A stretch of DNA of 64,000 bases, from NCBI RefSeq assembly GCF_002831585.1, contig NZ_CP025113.1, positions 7,331,001-7,395,000 of the forward strand, read 5' to 3'. The translations under genes were made by a program, and so were the position numbers. The stretch's first letter is position 1. Each line of letters starts with the position of its first letter. Source of the DNA: Bradyrhizobium sp. SK17 (GTDB lineage: Bacteria > Pseudomonadota > Alphaproteobacteria > Rhizobiales > Xanthobacteraceae). This document shows, in pieces, positions 49,344 to 57,275 of the stretch. The notes below the pieces were generated by a model. It had not been told where the DNA came from. It searched no databases and worked only from the letters and a program-made list of their open reading frames with translations.

Positions 49344-50537
49344 TCAGACCAGGCTCAGATCCTTCGGCTTGATGCCGGTGAAGATGCGCTCGAGGCTCGC
49401 CTGTTGCAGGCCGTAGACGTGCTGGATCAGGCCGGAGAAGAACGCCCGGTAATCGGTCAACACCGGAAAGTCGCGGTTCTGGAACAGCGTCGCCTGGCTG
49501 ACCTGGACCTGCTCGCCGGCCATGCGCCCGCCATTGATGCCGCCGCCCATCACCCAATAGACGCTGCCATGGCCGTGATCGGTGCCGCGGTCGCCGTTCT
49601 CGCGGAAGGTGCGGCCGAACTCGGAGATCACGACCACGACGGTGTCGCGCCACATCTGGGGCCCGATCTCTTCCGAGAAGCCGGCGAGGCCCCGGCCCAG
49701 TTCGCCGAGGCGGTCGGCGAGATAGCCGGTCGCCGCGCCCTGGTTGACATGGGTGTCCCAGCCGCCGACATCGACGAAGCCGAGGTTGAACTGCTCGCGC
49801 ATCAGGCGGCCGATCCGCCGCGCCGACAGCTCGAAGCCGCGCGGCGACACCGCGCCGCGATTGGCCGCCATCATCTCCTCGGAGACCGATTTGTAGACAT
49901 CGTCGCGAACGCGAAAGCCCTCCGACACCGAATTGGCGAGATCGCCCTTGCCGTACATCTCCCTGATCAGCCGCGCCTGGCGGTCGTCGACGCCCGGCTT
50001 GCTGACGCTGGCGATGCCGGTGTTCGGGATCTGGTTCTGGCCGCGGAAGATCAGCGGCAGCTGGTCGGTGAAGGAGATCGGCTTCACCCGCGTCAGCTCG
50101 CTCGCCAGCCGGCTCATGAAGCCGGAGCGGTAGTCGCGGCTGCCGCCGACCGCCTGCCCGAGCTCGATCGTGTCCTGGGTTTCGAAATGGCTGCGCGACA
50201 GGTCGTCGCTGGTGCCGGCAAACGGCACGAAGGCGATCTCGCGCTTGGCCCACAGCGGATAGATCGAATCGCGCAAGCTTGGATGCAGCCCCCATCCGGC
50301 GTCGAGCGAAAGCGCCGCATTCGGGTTGCCGACATCGGGCCGCGCCACCGCCAGCGTCGGGCGCGAGGCGTAGTAGAACTCGCTGCCGACGGGCACGATC
50401 ACGTTGGCGGCGTCGTAGGCGCCGCGCAGGAACACGACGAGCAGGCGCGCGTCGGTCGCCGGTGCCGCCCAGACCCGGCCGGCGACGGTGAGCGAAGCGG
50501 AAGCAGCGAAGGCCTTGATCAGTTCGCGGCGGTTCAT
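49344..50537 (-). CDS. DUF1501 exported protein
   Basis: A 397-residue protein of the DUF1501 family (alkaline phosphatase/sulfatase-like fold, enzymatic role unknown). A Tat signal peptide (MNRRELIKAFAASASLTVAG, cleavage after VWA) is followed by LLVVFLRGAYDAANVIVPVG, IAFVPFAGTSDDLSRSHFET and VVISEFGRTFRENGDRGTDH, the most conserved segments with candidate metal ligands (D/H/E). The start at 50537 is set by the twin-arginine sequence. It begins 14 bp after the DUF1800 stop. Confidence 0.92.
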   Translation of the reverse strand: MNRRELIKAFAASASLTVAGRVWAAPATDARLLVVFLRGAYDAANVIVPVGSEFYYASRPTLAVARPDVGNPNAALSLDAGWGLHPSLRDSIYPLWAKREIAFVPFAGTSDDLSRSHFETQDTIELGQAVGGSRDYRSGFMSRLASELTRVKPISFTDQLPLIFRGQNQIPNTGIASVSKPGVDDRQARLIREMYGKGDLANSVSEGFRVRDDVYKSVSEEMMAANRGAVSPRGFELSARRIGRLMREQFNLGFVDVGGWDTHVNQGAATGYLADRLGELGRGLAGFSEEIGPQMWRDTVVVVISEFGRTFRENGDRGTDHGHGSVYWVMGGGINGGRMAGEQVQVSQATLFQNRDFPVLTDYRAFFSGLIQHVYGLQQASLERIFTGIKPKDLSLV

Positions 50538-50551
50538 GGCGAACCTCCCTT

Positions 50552-52096
50552 TCAGTGCATGAATTCCGGTGACGACAGAAACAGCGTATTCCAATCCTGC
50601 GGCGAGACGGCCTGATCGAGCGCAGCGAGCGTGGTCGGACTCAGCGACTGCCTGATGTTGCTGAAGTAGAGCCCGTTCATCACCAGCGGGAACGCCGGCT
50701 GGTCGACCGCATTGGGCTCGTTTGGCTTGAACAGCCCGGCCGATCCGGAGCCGATCGCGCGCGCGATCTCGAAACGCAGCATCATCTGCCCGGGACCGTT
50801 CCAGGCCGCCGACAGCATCGAATAGCCGTCGGGCGTCTCGTGATTGAACAGGCCCTCGGACAGGCGGTTGAGCCAGCCCTGGATCGGCAGCGTGTTGAGG
50901 ATCACCTTGTTGTCATAGGCGAGCCGCACCGACGACATCACGTAGAGCATCGGGTCCTTGAACTTGCCGGCGCCCTTCAGGCTCGCGGCGAATTCCGGCG
51001 CGTGAACCAGCGTCGACATCACGGCCGCGATATCGCCGTCGGTCTTCTGGAAGGTCTGCGCCATGTGCTGCACCAGCGCGTCGGGCGGATTGTCCGACAC
51101 GAAATAGGTCGCGAGCTGCTTCGATATGTGCGTGGCGGTCGCCGGGTGGCGGCAGAGGATGTCGAGAGCCTCGTCGACCTCGGCAATGCCGCGGCCCTTG
51201 ATCTGATGACCGAGGAAGGTCTTGTCGCCGTAGTCGTGGCGTGCCGGATTGAATTCGAACGCGCCCTCGCGGACCAGCTGGGATTGCAGCTCGGGCTTCA
51301 GCTTCGGATCCTCCGGCTTGAAGTCGATGCCGACGCCAGTGAGGATGCGCGCCAACGCCTCGACATCGGCCTGGGTATAGCCGGAGCCGACGCCCATGGT
51401 GTGCAGCTCCATGATCTCGCGGGCGTAGTTCTCGTTGAGATGACCGGCGGCATTATCGGCGTTGTCGAGGTAACGCAGCATCACCGGGTGATGCAACGTC
51501 GCCGAAAGCAGGTCGCGGAACTTGCCGAGCGCGTTGGCGCGGATCGCGCGATCTTCGTAGTCGCCGACCAGCACGCGGATGTTGGCCTTGTACTGGTGGA
51601 CGTTGAAGTGGTTGAACCAGAACCAGGTCAGGCGTTCACGCAATTGATCCGGCGCATACAGCGCGTGCAGGATGCTGCGCGCTGCGGCCTGCCTGGCGCG
51701 GTCGTTCATGGCCTGCTGATAGACCTGCTGGGCCGCCTTCTTCTGCTCGGGATCGGCGACCTGATTGGCGGACTTTCCCTGCTGATCGAACGACACCGCG
51801 ATATCGAACGGGAAGCGATGCACGTCCGGCATCGCCTCGATCTGGGTATGGACGGCGGCCGGCAACGCGGTGTTGGCCGGATGCAGTTGCTCCTGCAACC
51901 AGCGCTCGACGCCGACCTCGTGCAGATGCGCCGCGCTCGAAGCGTTGACGCCCCAGGTCAGGCGATCGAGCAGCGCGATGTCCTGCGCGGCAAGCTCGGC
52001 CGCCCGCGCCGGCTGGTGCAACGCCACCAGCCCCGCGATCGTGCCGATCACCAGCTTCGCGACTGTCCGCGGTCCGAGTCTGGCCGTGATGCTCAT
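50552..52096 (-). CDS. DUF1800 exported protein
   Basis: A 514-residue secreted protein of DUF1800: signal peptide (VAKLVIGTIAGLVALHQPAR, cleavage after ARA), then ALLDRLTWGVNASSAAHLHE, LTWFWFNHFNVHQYKANIRV and NYAREIMELHTMGVGSGYTQ, then HDYGDKTFLGHQIKGRGIAE and ATHISKQLATYFVSDNPP. The family is largely helical, of unknown function, and nearly always lies beside a DUF1501 gene, as here. It starts 35 bp after the caspase-like gene on the same strand. Confidence 0.93.
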   Translation of the reverse strand: MSITARLGPRTVAKLVIGTIAGLVALHQPARAAELAAQDIALLDRLTWGVNASSAAHLHEVGVERWLQEQLHPANTALPAAVHTQIEAMPDVHRFPFDIAVSFDQQGKSANQVADPEQKKAAQQVYQQAMNDRARQAAARSILHALYAPDQLRERLTWFWFNHFNVHQYKANIRVLVGDYEDRAIRANALGKFRDLLSATLHHPVMLRYLDNADNAAGHLNENYAREIMELHTMGVGSGYTQADVEALARILTGVGIDFKPEDPKLKPELQSQLVREGAFEFNPARHDYGDKTFLGHQIKGRGIAEVDEALDILCRHPATATHISKQLATYFVSDNPPDALVQHMAQTFQKTDGDIAAVMSTLVHAPEFAASLKGAGKFKDPMLYVMSSVRLAYDNKVILNTLPIQGWLNRLSEGLFNHETPDGYSMLSAAWNGPGQMMLRFEIARAIGSGSAGLFKPNEPNAVDQPAFPLVMNGLYFSNIRQSLSPTTLAALDQAVSPQDWNTLFLSSPEFMH

Positions 52097-52131
52097 GAAG
52101 GCTGACCTGCTCGGCTCATGGTGTCACGTCC

Positions 52132-54366
52132 TCAATGTTTGCATTTGCCGGGAGGACATGCCGGCGCGGCACGTGGTGCCGGCCTTGGCGGCGCCGCCAT
52201 CCGCGGCGGTGGCGCCGCGCGTTGCGCCTGCACCACCGGCCGCGGAGGTGGCGCGGCGCGCGGAGCCGGCGCGGGTGCCGGACGCGGCTGCACGGCGGCG
52301 GCGCGAGGCGGCGGGGCTGCGGCACGCGGCGGTGCGGCACGCGAGACCGGCGCCGGCGATACCGCAGCATGCGCGGGTGCCGCGCGCGCGGCCGGTGCCG
52401 GCCGTGCTGCCGTCGCGCGATTCACCGGGGCCATCGCAGGCTTCACGTTGGCGGTCGGTGCGGTCGCGGCATGCGTGAGTGGTTGCCGCCCGGGCTTGCC
52501 GGCGATCGTGGGCGCGTTTGGCGCCGCGGCCGCGCCAGGCTTGGTCGGGGCGGCTGGTTGCGCATTGGCGGGCGCCATCGCCGTCGCCGGCCTGGCGGGG
52601 GCGAGCGCATTCGGCCGCGCGCCGGGTTGCACGCTGCCGGGCGGTGTGGTGCCCGGCTGCACGGCGCCATGCTGCTGAATGGCATTGGCCGGCGCGGTCG
52701 CCGACTGCGGCAGCGGCGGTCCATTCTTGGCACCCGGCAGGGTGTGCGCGCCCATCGCGTTCGGCGCGACTGCGTTCGGTGCAACTCCCGGCGCTCCCAT
52801 GGCCGCGCCTTGTGCCGGCGTCACGCCCGGTTGCGTGAGGTTGGCACGCTGCATCGCCGCGGCCGGCAGTTGCGGAGCGGCCGTGACCGGCGCGCCGCCC
52901 ATGGCCGCCGTCACACCGGCCGCATGGAGCTGCGCCGGCGTCGGGTTGGGATTGTTGATCACCGTGTTGATCACCGTGGTGTTGTGGATGTTGTTGAACA
53001 CGATGTTGTTCGGCGGCGGCACGACATAGGCCGGTGCGGCGACATAGGCCGGCATCGCCACGAAGAACGGCGTCGGCAGCACGAACAGCCCGATCGGCGG
53101 CGGCGGCGGCGGCAGCACGACGAAGTCCGGCGGCGGCGGCGGCAGGAAGAACACCGGCGGCGGCGGCGGCGGCGCGAAGGCGAACACCGGATCGCTGTAG
53201 TAGAGCACCGGGCGGTCGACATAGACCACCTCGTCGGGCGGCGGCGGCGGCACGTCGTAGTCAATCGCAGCGAACTGCGGCGGCGGCTCCAGCGCGGCCG
53301 ACAGATAGGCGAGCCGGCGCCGCGCGTCGTAGGCGTGCGGCCCGCGCGGATAGCGCCTCAGGTAAGACCAATAAGCATCAGGCGTGTCGGCATTGTAGGT
53401 GCGCCGCCACGTGATGGACTCGCGCCGCGCCGCCACGATCGCGCGCACGCGCTTGGCAAGCGGATCGGTCGGGTAGGCCTGCAGATAGTCCTCGTAGCCT
53501 TGCAGGGTGTCGCGCTCCAGCGCGGCCGCATAGGCATCCTGCGCCGGGAAATCGCGGATCGGTTTGGTGCGCAGTCCGGCATCGACCTGCTGCGGCGGTG
53601 CGTCCGGCTTACGCTCGAAGAACATGAAGGGCGCGTCGACCTTCTGCGCATTCCACGGGATCTCGGCACCCTTGGTCATCTCGTTGACCCGCAGGCGGAC
53701 GCGGTCGAACACGTCGGGCAAGGTCAGGCCGCCGGCACGGATCATTTCCGCCAGCGCTTGGGCGTAAGGCCCGTAAGGCGGCGCGCCGTCAGGAGCGACG
53801 GTGCCCGGCGCGGAGTTGAAGGCGATCAGCATCTTGGGCTCGGGATCGACCAGCGCAAGCCCGCCGGCCAGCGGCTGGCTGTCCTTGGCGAACGGATTGC
53901 TGCGTGCCGCATCGAGCACGATCACCCCGGCCTTGATCGGCAGTGCCGACAATTGATGAGTGTAGTCGGAGATGCGGATCGCCTCGACCGGCACGTCGGT
54001 GTCGCGGGCGATCTTGGCGTCGACGGGCACGAAGTAATTCTCGCCGGTGAGTTGCACGCCGTAGCCGGCGAGGTAGACGAAGGCGACCGCATTGGGGCCT
54101 GCGTCCTGCACCTTCTGGATGAAATCGCGGAACGACTTGCGCAGCGTCTCGCCGTCGAGGTCGCGGGCCCCGATCACATCGAAGCCGGCAGCCTGCAAGG
54201 TCTGCGCGATCAGCCCGGCGTCGTTGGCGGCGGTCTGCAACGCGCCGGCCTGGTAGGCGCCGTTGCCGATCACGAGCGCGAGGCGCTTTTCCTGATTCTG
54301 GGCGTGCACGGGAAGCGACGCGAACGACACCAGACCGACGATCAAAGCCCAGAGAATGCGCGCCAT
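52132..54366 (-). CDS. Exported caspase-fold protein lacking catalytic residues, with Pro/Ala-rich tail
   Basis: A 744-residue protein. Residues 1-22 are a Sec signal. Residues ~26-252 are a peptidase C14 (caspase-like) fold: KRLALVIGNGAYQAGALQTA, NDAGLIAQTLQAAGFDV and PNAVAFVYLAGYGVQL. The catalytic His of the usual AGHG is Tyr102 and the Cys of LDACR is Ala154 (VLDAARSNPF), so it should be a pseudo-protease. Residues ~275-355 carry two short YLxxYP helical repeats (GYEDYLQAYP, AYWSYLRRYPRGPHA). From ~373 on come polyproline runs, an Asn-rich patch and a long Ala/Pro/Thr tail ending CPPGKCKH. It heads a cluster with DUF1800 and DUF1501. Confidence 0.9.
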   Translation of the reverse strand: MARILWALIVGLVSFASLPVHAQNQEKRLALVIGNGAYQAGALQTAANDAGLIAQTLQAAGFDVIGARDLDGETLRKSFRDFIQKVQDAGPNAVAFVYLAGYGVQLTGENYFVPVDAKIARDTDVPVEAIRISDYTHQLSALPIKAGVIVLDAARSNPFAKDSQPLAGGLALVDPEPKMLIAFNSAPGTVAPDGAPPYGPYAQALAEMIRAGGLTLPDVFDRVRLRVNEMTKGAEIPWNAQKVDAPFMFFERKPDAPPQQVDAGLRTKPIRDFPAQDAYAAALERDTLQGYEDYLQAYPTDPLAKRVRAIVAARRESITWRRTYNADTPDAYWSYLRRYPRGPHAYDARRRLAYLSAALEPPPQFAAIDYDVPPPPPDEVVYVDRPVLYYSDPVFAFAPPPPPPVFFLPPPPPDFVVLPPPPPPIGLFVLPTPFFVAMPAYVAAPAYVVPPPNNIVFNNIHNTTVINTVINNPNPTPAQLHAAGVTAAMGGAPVTAAPQLPAAAMQRANLTQPGVTPAQGAAMGAPGVAPNAVAPNAMGAHTLPGAKNGPPLPQSATAPANAIQQHGAVQPGTTPPGSVQPGARPNALAPARPATAMAPANAQPAAPTKPGAAAAPNAPTIAGKPGRQPLTHAATAPTANVKPAMAPVNRATAARPAPAARAAPAHAAVSPAPVSRAAPPRAAAPPPRAAAVQPRPAPAPAPRAAPPPRPVVQAQRAAPPPRMAAPPRPAPRAAPACPPGKCKH

Positions 54367-55475: not shown

Positions 55476-57275
55476 ATGAAACCGACTGATATCTCGGCGC
55501 CGGATTACTTTCATAAAGTAGTCGATTGCCAATGGGCCTGTCCCGCACACACCCCTGTTCCTGAGTACATCCGGTTGATTGCTGAGGGGCGTTACAGCGA
55601 CGCCTACATGATCAATTGGAAGTCCAACGTGTTCCCCGGCATCCTGGGACGCACGTGTGACCGTCCCTGCGAGCCGGCCTGCCGCCGCGGCCGCGTCGAG
55701 GACAATCCGGTTGCGATCTGCCGCCTGAAGCGCGTCGCCGCGGACTTCAAGGACGATATCCAGCATCGCCTGCCGAAGCCGGGACCGAAGAACGGCAAGC
55801 GCGTCGCGCTGGTCGGCGGCGGTCCCGCCTCGCTCGCCGTGGCCCGCGATCTCGCGCCGCTCGGCTATCACTGCACCGTGTTCGACGGCGACCCCAAGGC
55901 CGGCGGCATGATGCGCAGCCAGATTCCGAAATTCCGCCTGCCCGACAGCGTGATCGACGAGGAGACCGGCTACATCCTGGGCCTCGGCGTCGAGTTCAAG
56001 GGCGGCCATCGCGTCGACAGCCTGAAGCAGCTTTTGGCAGAGAACTATGACGCGATCTTCGTCGGCAGCGGCGCGCCGCGCGGCCGCGAGCTCGACATTC
56101 CCGGCCGCAAGGAGGCCGCCGCCAACATCCATATCGGCATCGAGTGGCTGTCCAACGTGTCGTTCGGCCATGTCGACAAGATCGGCCGCCGCGTCATCGT
56201 GCTGGGCGGCGGCAACACCGCGATGGATTGCTGCCGCACCGCGCGCCGCCTCGGCGGCGAGAGCGTCAAGGTGATCGTCCGCTCCGGCTTCGAGGAGATG
56301 AAGGCCTCGCCGTGGGAGAAGGAAGACGCCCTGCACGAGGACATCCCGATCCTCAACTACATGGTGCCGGTCGCATTCGTTCACGACAACGGCAAGCTGA
56401 CCGGCGTCACCTTCCAGAAGGTGAAAGCGGAGTACGACGCCAAGGGCCGCCGCAACCTGGTGCCGTCGGGTGAGCCCGACGAGACCGTGGCCTGCGACGA
56501 TGTGCTCGTTGCGGTCGGCCAGGAGAATGCGTTCCCCTGGATCGAAGCCGATTGCGGCATCGAATTCGACAAGTGGCACATGCCGAAGGTCGACCCCAAG
56601 ACGTTCGTCTCGACCAATCCGAAGGTGTTCTTCGGCGGCGACGCGGCGTTCGGGCCGAAGAACATCATCTGGGCAGTGGCGCACGGCCATGACGCCGCGC
56701 TGTCGATCCACAAAATGCTGTCCGGCGAGGACATCAACGAGCGCCCGCTGCCCGAGGTGCACGTCTCCTCGCAGAAGATGGGCATCCACGAGTGGAGCTA
56801 CGACAACGACATCTCCACTGACAAGCGCTTCAAGGTGCCGCATCGCGACAAGATCATCGCGCTGAAGGACATCCGCGCCGAGGTCGAGCTCGGCTACGAC
56901 GTCAAGCTCGCGCTCGGCGAGGCGGAGCGCTGCCTGAACTGCGACGTGCAGACGGTGTTCTCCGCGCCGCTCTGCATCGAATGCGACGCCTGCGTCGACA
57001 TCTGTCCGATGGACTGCATCACCTTCACCCAGAACGGTGAAGAGGACGACCTGCGGCAGCGGCTGAAAGCGCCCTCGCCGAATCACGACCAAGCGCTCTA
57101 CGTCTCGGGCGACCTGAAGACCGGTCGCGTCATGGTGAAGGACGAAGACGTCTGCCTGCATTGCGGGCTGTGTGCCGAGCGCTGCCCGACCGGCGCCTGG
57201 GACATGCAGAAGTACCTCATCGATATGGTTCAAGCGGGATCAACATGTCAGTCCAAAGCCCGATCAGCAGCGTAA
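55476..57275 (+). CDS. GltD-like FAD/4Fe-4S oxidoreductase subunit (KorC-type)
   Basis: A 599-residue protein that moves electrons between NAD(P)H and iron-sulfur clusters. Residues ~1-100 hold the GltD-type Fe-S helical domain (WACPAHTPVPEYIRLIAEGR, TCDRPCEPACRRG). FAD and NAD(P) Rossmann motifs follow (VALVGGGPASLAVARDL, VIVLGGGNTAMDCCRTARRL). The C-terminus has two 4Fe-4S ferredoxin motifs (CIECDACVDICP and CLHCGLCAERCP). It overlaps the alpha-subunit gene by 31 bp. By analogy with the Azoarcus/Thauera 2-oxoglutarate:NADP+ oxidoreductase it would couple the Kor enzyme to NADP; that is inference. Confidence 0.9.
   Translation: MKPTDISAPDYFHKVVDCQWACPAHTPVPEYIRLIAEGRYSDAYMINWKSNVFPGILGRTCDRPCEPACRRGRVEDNPVAICRLKRVAADFKDDIQHRLPKPGPKNGKRVALVGGGPASLAVARDLAPLGYHCTVFDGDPKAGGMMRSQIPKFRLPDSVIDEETGYILGLGVEFKGGHRVDSLKQLLAENYDAIFVGSGAPRGRELDIPGRKEAAANIHIGIEWLSNVSFGHVDKIGRRVIVLGGGNTAMDCCRTARRLGGESVKVIVRSGFEEMKASPWEKEDALHEDIPILNYMVPVAFVHDNGKLTGVTFQKVKAEYDAKGRRNLVPSGEPDETVACDDVLVAVGQENAFPWIEADCGIEFDKWHMPKVDPKTFVSTNPKVFFGGDAAFGPKNIIWAVAHGHDAALSIHKMLSGEDINERPLPEVHVSSQKMGIHEWSYDNDISTDKRFKVPHRDKIIALKDIRAEVELGYDVKLALGEAERCLNCDVQTVFSAPLCIECDACVDICPMDCITFTQNGEEDDLRQRLKAPSPNHDQALYVSGDLKTGRVMVKDEDVCLHCGLCAERCPTGAWDMQKYLIDMVQAGSTCQSKARSAA

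Follow-up and report, generated by a model that had tools for sequence, protein, structure and literature searches.

The Rhizobiales are known to encode a class of pseudo-orthocaspases, designated YA, which have long C-termini with no recognizable domain and conserve two acidic pocket residues; a role in photosynthesis was proposed for them (PMC6426788). Knock-out of another pseudo-orthocaspase, SyOC of Synechocystis, gave better tolerance of oxidative stress (PMC7889975). The acids of the P1 pocket are D365 and D462 in MALT1 and D95 and D211 in TbMCA2, with roles described in PMC4357240. Proteins DUF1800 and DUF1501, a known pair of unknown function, are encoded in a predicted operon (PMC5122149). 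In the open-licence literature we found no tested function or partner for Rhizobiales pseudo-orthocaspases, no paper testing DUF1800 function and no account of a caspase-DUF1800-DUF1501 triad; in the available main text of an analysis of caspase operons neither DUF is named (PMC3501461). Here we analyse a window of 64,000 nucleotides from Bradyrhizobium sp. SK17 (NZ_CP025113.1, positions 7,331,001 to 7,395,000), in which a pseudo-orthocaspase gene heads a cluster of three minus-strand genes, followed by genes for DUF1800 and DUF1501 after gaps of only 35 and 14 bp.

An earlier examination of the letters alone (the original prediction) had described this locus as a conserved non-catalytic envelope system of three exported proteins, in which a dead caspase binds rather than cuts. 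The coordinates, gaps and families were as described, and by its sequences the caspase family is conserved and non-catalytic; the trio as a system does not hold, as no DUF pair was seen in the fetched flanks of family loci outside Phyllobacterium and the Bradyrhizobium branch of the window (hereafter the window clade). Of the explanations weighed below the likeliest, to which we give about an even chance, is that the protein is an exported adaptor that binds without cutting and is facultatively coupled to an independent DUF1800-DUF1501 module.

A pseudoenzyme with a retained acidic pocket

The tyrosine and alanine said to replace the catalytic residues are seen directly: Y102 lies within LAGYGVQL and A154 within IVLDAARSNP. 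We assign them to the catalytic His and Cys positions because the family profile, aligned with the solved MALT1 paracaspase (whose structures are the nearest solved ones in the profile search, E 9.4e-10), places them on AGHG and LDMC. The p20 caspase fold is recognized both by Pfam Peptidase_C14 and by the MALT1 profile match, and the His-Cys dyad needed for an active caspase or metacaspase protease is missing. Pfam gives a single C14 match, a separate p10 not having been searched for, and no match past residue 244 of 744, which leaves the protein with the prolonged domainless C-terminus of the YA class.

The loss of the Cys is common to all the family rows aligned. Among these 78 rows (a few being one gene fetched twice) we counted the dyads YA (62), YG (4), QA (3), HA (2), YS (2), LA (2), EA (2) and HG (1); A, G or S stands at the Cys position in every row, whereas the residue at the His position varies. 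All 15 distinct caspase domains adjacent to DUF1800 were YA (16 rows, two of them the window gene itself), and among the 120 matches listed of 3921 the motif pattern read YA in 103 and YG in one, failing on one side in 16. The family forms a clade with SH-aLRT support of 99 in a tree of 85 rows, i.e. the 78 family rows and seven other caspases of the window genome, matches below 150 bits being excluded. Within the genus, 129 of 146 genomes have relatives of the window caspase (best E ≤1e-80; some of the other 17 genomes are incomplete); in the sample of the order the figure is 44 of 397 genomes (at least 216 bits, the cut used also for co-occurrence; the next listed matches have 190 bits and 43% identity). 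Judged by these alignments, the window caspase is a fixed pseudoenzyme of a conserved non-catalytic family. A lone mutant, which would have refuted the original prediction, is ruled out, as the Cys is missing in 78 of 78 rows.

The aspartates of the NDA and LD motifs, D49 and D152 (alignment positions 27 and 130), are invariant in all 32 rows of a diverse alignment, and the profile alignment sets them against both pocket acids of MALT1. We take D49 to correspond to D365 of MALT1 and D95 of TbMCA2, and D152 to D462 and D211. By this alignment the acidic pocket that grips a basic residue (Arg or Lys) in relatives is kept and the cutting residues are lost. The caspase domain is under purifying selection: in comparisons with eight orthologues (nine were entered, eight gave values) dN/dS was 0.05-0.06 for this domain, 0.05-0.14 for the middle part and 0.13-0.20 for the tail. 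Given that both pocket acids are kept, that the Cys is lost family-wide and that selection is purifying, binding without cutting, as originally predicted, would be the natural reading.

Outside the domain, the predicted YLxxYP repeats, polyproline runs and CPPGKCKH terminus are all present. Hydrophobic N-terminal starts (judged by eye) and the YLxxYP motif recur in most of the family members inspected. Ends of the form C-x(2-8)-C were observed in 58 of 72 full-length homologues (ORFs touching a contig end were excluded), and in 49 of the 72 these are the only two cysteines past the domain start; from its sequence the terminal Cys pair may be a disulfide clasp or a metal site. The C-termini at L317, L318 and L319 are additionally His-rich, e.g. 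CHGKHGCH, and look metal-binding.

Several further observations concern the caspase genes. The window genome has 15 caspase-family genes; among the 14 aligned by profile one is YA (the gene discussed here), two are YS and 11 keep His-Cys. The two with the Tyr-Ser dyad are additional pseudo-caspases (L010 and L011; C1:1636323-1636970 and 1658137-1658793). Some genomes of the genus (G067, G025 and G031; L233-L239) carry two or three divergent pseudo-orthocaspase copies. An interrupted caspase frame is present in Bradyrhizobium tropiciagri SEMIA 6148 (L107:7481-9978), in plasmid p_1 of Phyllobacterium sp. 628 (L147:7571-8950 and beyond, with no CDS annotated) and in G101 (L251:8570-9807), each a candidate pseudogene or sequencing error. 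Eight draft assemblies (L102, L104, L108, L109, L111, L114, L115 and L117) end inside the Pro/Ala-rich tail upstream of DUF1800; thus the gene may be under-reported in drafts.

Distribution of the three-gene arrangement

We considered the linkage first from the side of the DUF pair, using the best 80 of 290 DUF1800 loci, a sample that partly overlaps the G-numbered genomes. The caspase gene stands directly upstream of the pair in all 19 window-clade loci in this sample (11 recognized by the caspase domain, eight by the tail at a contig edge, CPPGKCKH or its last residues) and in all three Phyllobacterium loci (at L142 and L147 the domain shows it, at L139 the tail). The other 58 of the best 80 gave no caspase domain upstream; absence is weaker evidence for the six with <0.6 kb and the five with 1.5-2.9 kb of upstream sequence. 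Among 55 DUF1800 loci fetched from genomes of relatives a caspase was found only at L050 (G004, window clade).

From the side of the caspase, flanks of up to ∼8 kb contained no DUF pair at 26 Bradyrhizobium loci that belong neither to the window clade nor to its nearest group (three of them cut at the caspase end), at three loci of the nearest group and at any of the 33 loci covered in the order sample (three are from Bradyrhizobium and 30 from other genera; two cut at the caspase end). Of the plasmid records, 11 have the caspase, nine have DUF1800, and only a Phyllobacterium plasmid is in both lists. The pair beside the caspase is thus seen only in the window clade and in Phyllobacterium. The three-gene unit is a lineage-limited arrangement and not a conserved system, and the expectation that related genomes would keep the trio side by side largely fails.

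Elsewhere in Bradyrhizobium the caspase gene has another location, beside dnaE at 19 and tsf at 18 of 27 loci, with pyrH (named from its place; Pfam says amino acid kinase), frr and dxr; the 27 include second copies, contig-end loci and L251, which is of the window clade. In the window genome ∼1.4 kb separates dnaE from tsf, and a search of this site found no caspase. The caspase neighbour in the window is an oxidoreductase (55476-57275) that carries pyridine-nucleotide and 4Fe-4S domains; it is common to 11 of 11 window-clade loci, and of the three loci of the next group two have it some kb off. On a plasmid of Rhizobium sp. Pop5 (L322:5881-9253) the caspase is followed by a co-oriented gene of the MipA/OmpV family.

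Origin of the cluster

The two cluster-bearing groups are kept apart in both trees. Phyllobacterium sits among rows of other families in the caspase tree, apart from the window clade, and in the tree of the DUF pair it is placed together with rows of Hyphomicrobium and Rhodoplanes. A single clade uniting the two groups was rejected for the caspase (p-AU 5.7e-62, with 18 of 85 rows dropped, namely long or short rows and five of the seven outgroup rows) as well as for the DUF pair (p-AU 1.6e-5, with 18 of 88 rows dropped). As a shared clade is rejected for both modules, the cluster either arose on two occasions or is old and has undergone many losses. Double formation takes fewer steps, and we consider that the cluster probably was formed twice. 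That chance would twice bring the genes together with identical order and orientation is, we infer, unlikely; the probable double formation is a modest argument for functional coupling, and the presence of the arrangement in two lineages separated by the trees leaves room for a facultative link.

The DUF1800 and DUF1501 proteins

Both proteins score far above the Pfam gathering cut-offs, DUF1800 (PF08811) with 448 bits against 26.1 and DUF1501 (PF07394) with 143.4 bits against 27, while no NCBIfam model matches any of the three cluster proteins at E 0.001. Judged by eye, all three carry export signals, as had been predicted, and are probably exported; the start of DUF1501, MNRRELIK, is twin-arginine-like. 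The DUF1501 model matches the core fold of the alkaline phosphatase superfamily, which weakly suggests an enzyme of that fold. Its residues D42, S116, D261, H263, D320 and H321 are conserved in 49 of 49 copies, and may be the counterparts of metal ligands and nucleophile of the superfamily. In DUF1800 the residues H163, D211, E222, R226, E227, E230, H232 and H287 are conserved in ≥95% of the 52 copies compared and could, from this pattern, form a metal or catalytic site. Coordinates are given in Table 1.

Table 1. Features of the caspase-DUF1800-DUF1501 cluster, numbered from the first letter of the window
Feature	Position	Strand	Basis
Caspase ORF, YA pseudo-orthocaspase, 744 aa, probably exported	54366-52132	-	ORF; Pfam Peptidase_C14 E 7.9e-35 (residues 27-244); MALT1 match
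Probable Sec-type signal peptide of caspase, ∼residues 1-22	54301..54366	-	judged by eye
D49 (NDA motif), P1-pocket acid	54220..54222	-	invariant 32/32; aligned to MALT1 Asp
Y102, catalytic His position	54061..54063	-	motif and profile alignment to MALT1
D152 (LDAAR), second P1-pocket acid	53911..53913	-	invariant 32/32; MALT1 alignment
A154, catalytic Cys position	53905..53907	-	not Cys in any of 78 family rows
YLxxYP repeat region (YLQAYP 294-299, YLRRYP 335-340)	53347..53487	-	sequence
Ala/Pro-rich tail of caspase, residues 421-744	52135..53106	-	sequence; dN/dS 0.13-0.20
C-terminal Cys pair of caspase, CPPGKCKH	52135..52158	-	only two cysteines after domain start
DUF1800 protein (514 aa) with signal peptide judged by eye; model largely helical	52096-50552	-	Pfam E 5.3e-134; mean pLDDT 78.2
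DUF1501 protein, 397 aa, twin-arginine-like start, alkaline-phosphatase-superfamily fold	50537-49344	-	Pfam E 1.4e-41

The window genome has a second, distant DUF1800-DUF1501 pair (C1:2669280-2670521; L017, L068), ∼35% identical, of a type that occurs in many genomes of the genus. In Bradyrhizobium sp. ARR65 (L136:9929-12757) one open frame of 943 aa spans DUF1800, with its end altered, and DUF1501; this may be a fusion, a frameshift or an error.

Competing explanations

The explanation that survives best beside the adaptor is that the pseudo-orthocaspase and the DUF pair are independent genes brought together by rearrangement, with no shared function, which we regard as possible, if somewhat doubtful. 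In its favour, the fetched flanks of family members outside the window clade and Phyllobacterium have no pair, and pairs occur without a caspase. Moreover, of the 11 window-clade genomes whose context could be read, all with the caspase, eight have an intact pair beside it; G010 and G003 have no pair there, and in G133 a remnant of a broken DUF1800 gene is left. Against chance speak the gene order and orientation, which agree between two groups set apart by both trees, as well as the caspase upstream of all 19 window-clade pairs among the best 80 of 290 loci.

The three genomes just named weigh also against the adaptor reading, and they are not alone. Among nine genomes with the window-type pair, G015 and G032 have no close caspase. 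In a related genus the caspase is present in four of six genomes and the same six gave no DUF1800 match at E 1e-60, a weak negative as there was no positive control. Co-occurrence speaks for the adaptor reading: DUF1800 was found in 125 of the 397 sampled genomes of the order, in 36 of 44 with the caspase versus 89 of 353 without it, and outside the genus in 22 of 30 versus 88 of 352 (p 1.7e-7); these statistics ignore both descent and genome size. On the opposing side, the DUF1501 model is weak (mean pLDDT 58.8), and the invariant Asp residues of the caspase may serve the fold and not binding.

An ancient conserved three-part envelope complex of the Rhizobiales, non-catalytic and broken up in most genomes, would agree with the gene order kept in two distant groups and with the tendency of the two modules to share genomes. 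It would need many separate losses, given that no pair was seen at the 26 non-clade Bradyrhizobium loci (23 uncut), the three nearest-group loci and the 33 order loci (31 uncut), and genomes with one module only do exist; we consider it improbable. As improbable, in our view, is a sensor with new chemistry or a ligand at the substituted site (e.g. one in which Tyr102 and the acidic pocket hold a small molecule, in place of a peptide adaptor), for although the His position is most often Tyr (YA 62, YG 4 and YS 2 of 78), Q, L, E and H also occur there and no fixed replacement chemistry is needed.

A proposed role as an adaptor

If the adaptor reading is right, the pseudo-orthocaspase would be exported and would bind without cutting, the acidic pocket of its p20 domain holding basic segments of a target. 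The YLxxYP region, the long Pro/Ala tail and the terminal Cys pair would suit a periplasmic or surface adaptor. In the Hyphomicrobiales the caspase family stands alone; in the window clade the gene is missing from its usual dnaE-tsf site and heads a cluster with a separate, probably exported module of DUF1501 and DUF1800. Presumably co-expressed with this module, the adaptor may bring a basic protein or a wall-linked target to it.

One could go further and speculate that a dead protease was twice recruited as the target-finding subunit of an exported enzyme of the alkaline phosphatase superfamily (DUF1501 with DUF1800), with DUF1501 acting on an envelope phospho- or sulfo-ester and the empty caspase pocket holding a basic segment of a protein; in this specific form the idea is unlikely. 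The fold matched by DUF1501 does point to an activity that can be tested, and strains with the caspase joined to the DUF pair, beside close relatives without it, make a natural test set for a partner.

Comparison with described systems

The window caspase has the p20 fold, the Tyr-Ala dyad, the prolonged domainless C-terminus and the acidic pair in common with the YA/YS pseudo-orthocaspases of the Rhizobiales, and comes from the same order; the available text of that description has no mention of DUF1800 or DUF1501 neighbours or of a terminal Cys pair, and the words ‘operon’ and ‘neighbor’ occur in it 0 times (PMC6426788). SyOC is likewise a pseudo-orthocaspase without the catalytic dyad; it is also without p10 and, unlike the window protein, is cyanobacterial (PMC7889975). 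With MALT1 the window caspase has both pocket acids in alignment, but MALT1 is an Arg-specific protease (PMC4357240) whereas the window protein has neither the His nor the Cys. Finally, the DUF1501-DUF1800 operons described with chitin synthase have the same DUF pair, a predicted operon and a twin-arginine motif on DUF1501; there, as far as the available text goes, the pair adjoins a chitin synthase and a sugar epimerase, whereas the pair in the window adjoins a pseudo-orthocaspase (PMC5122149).

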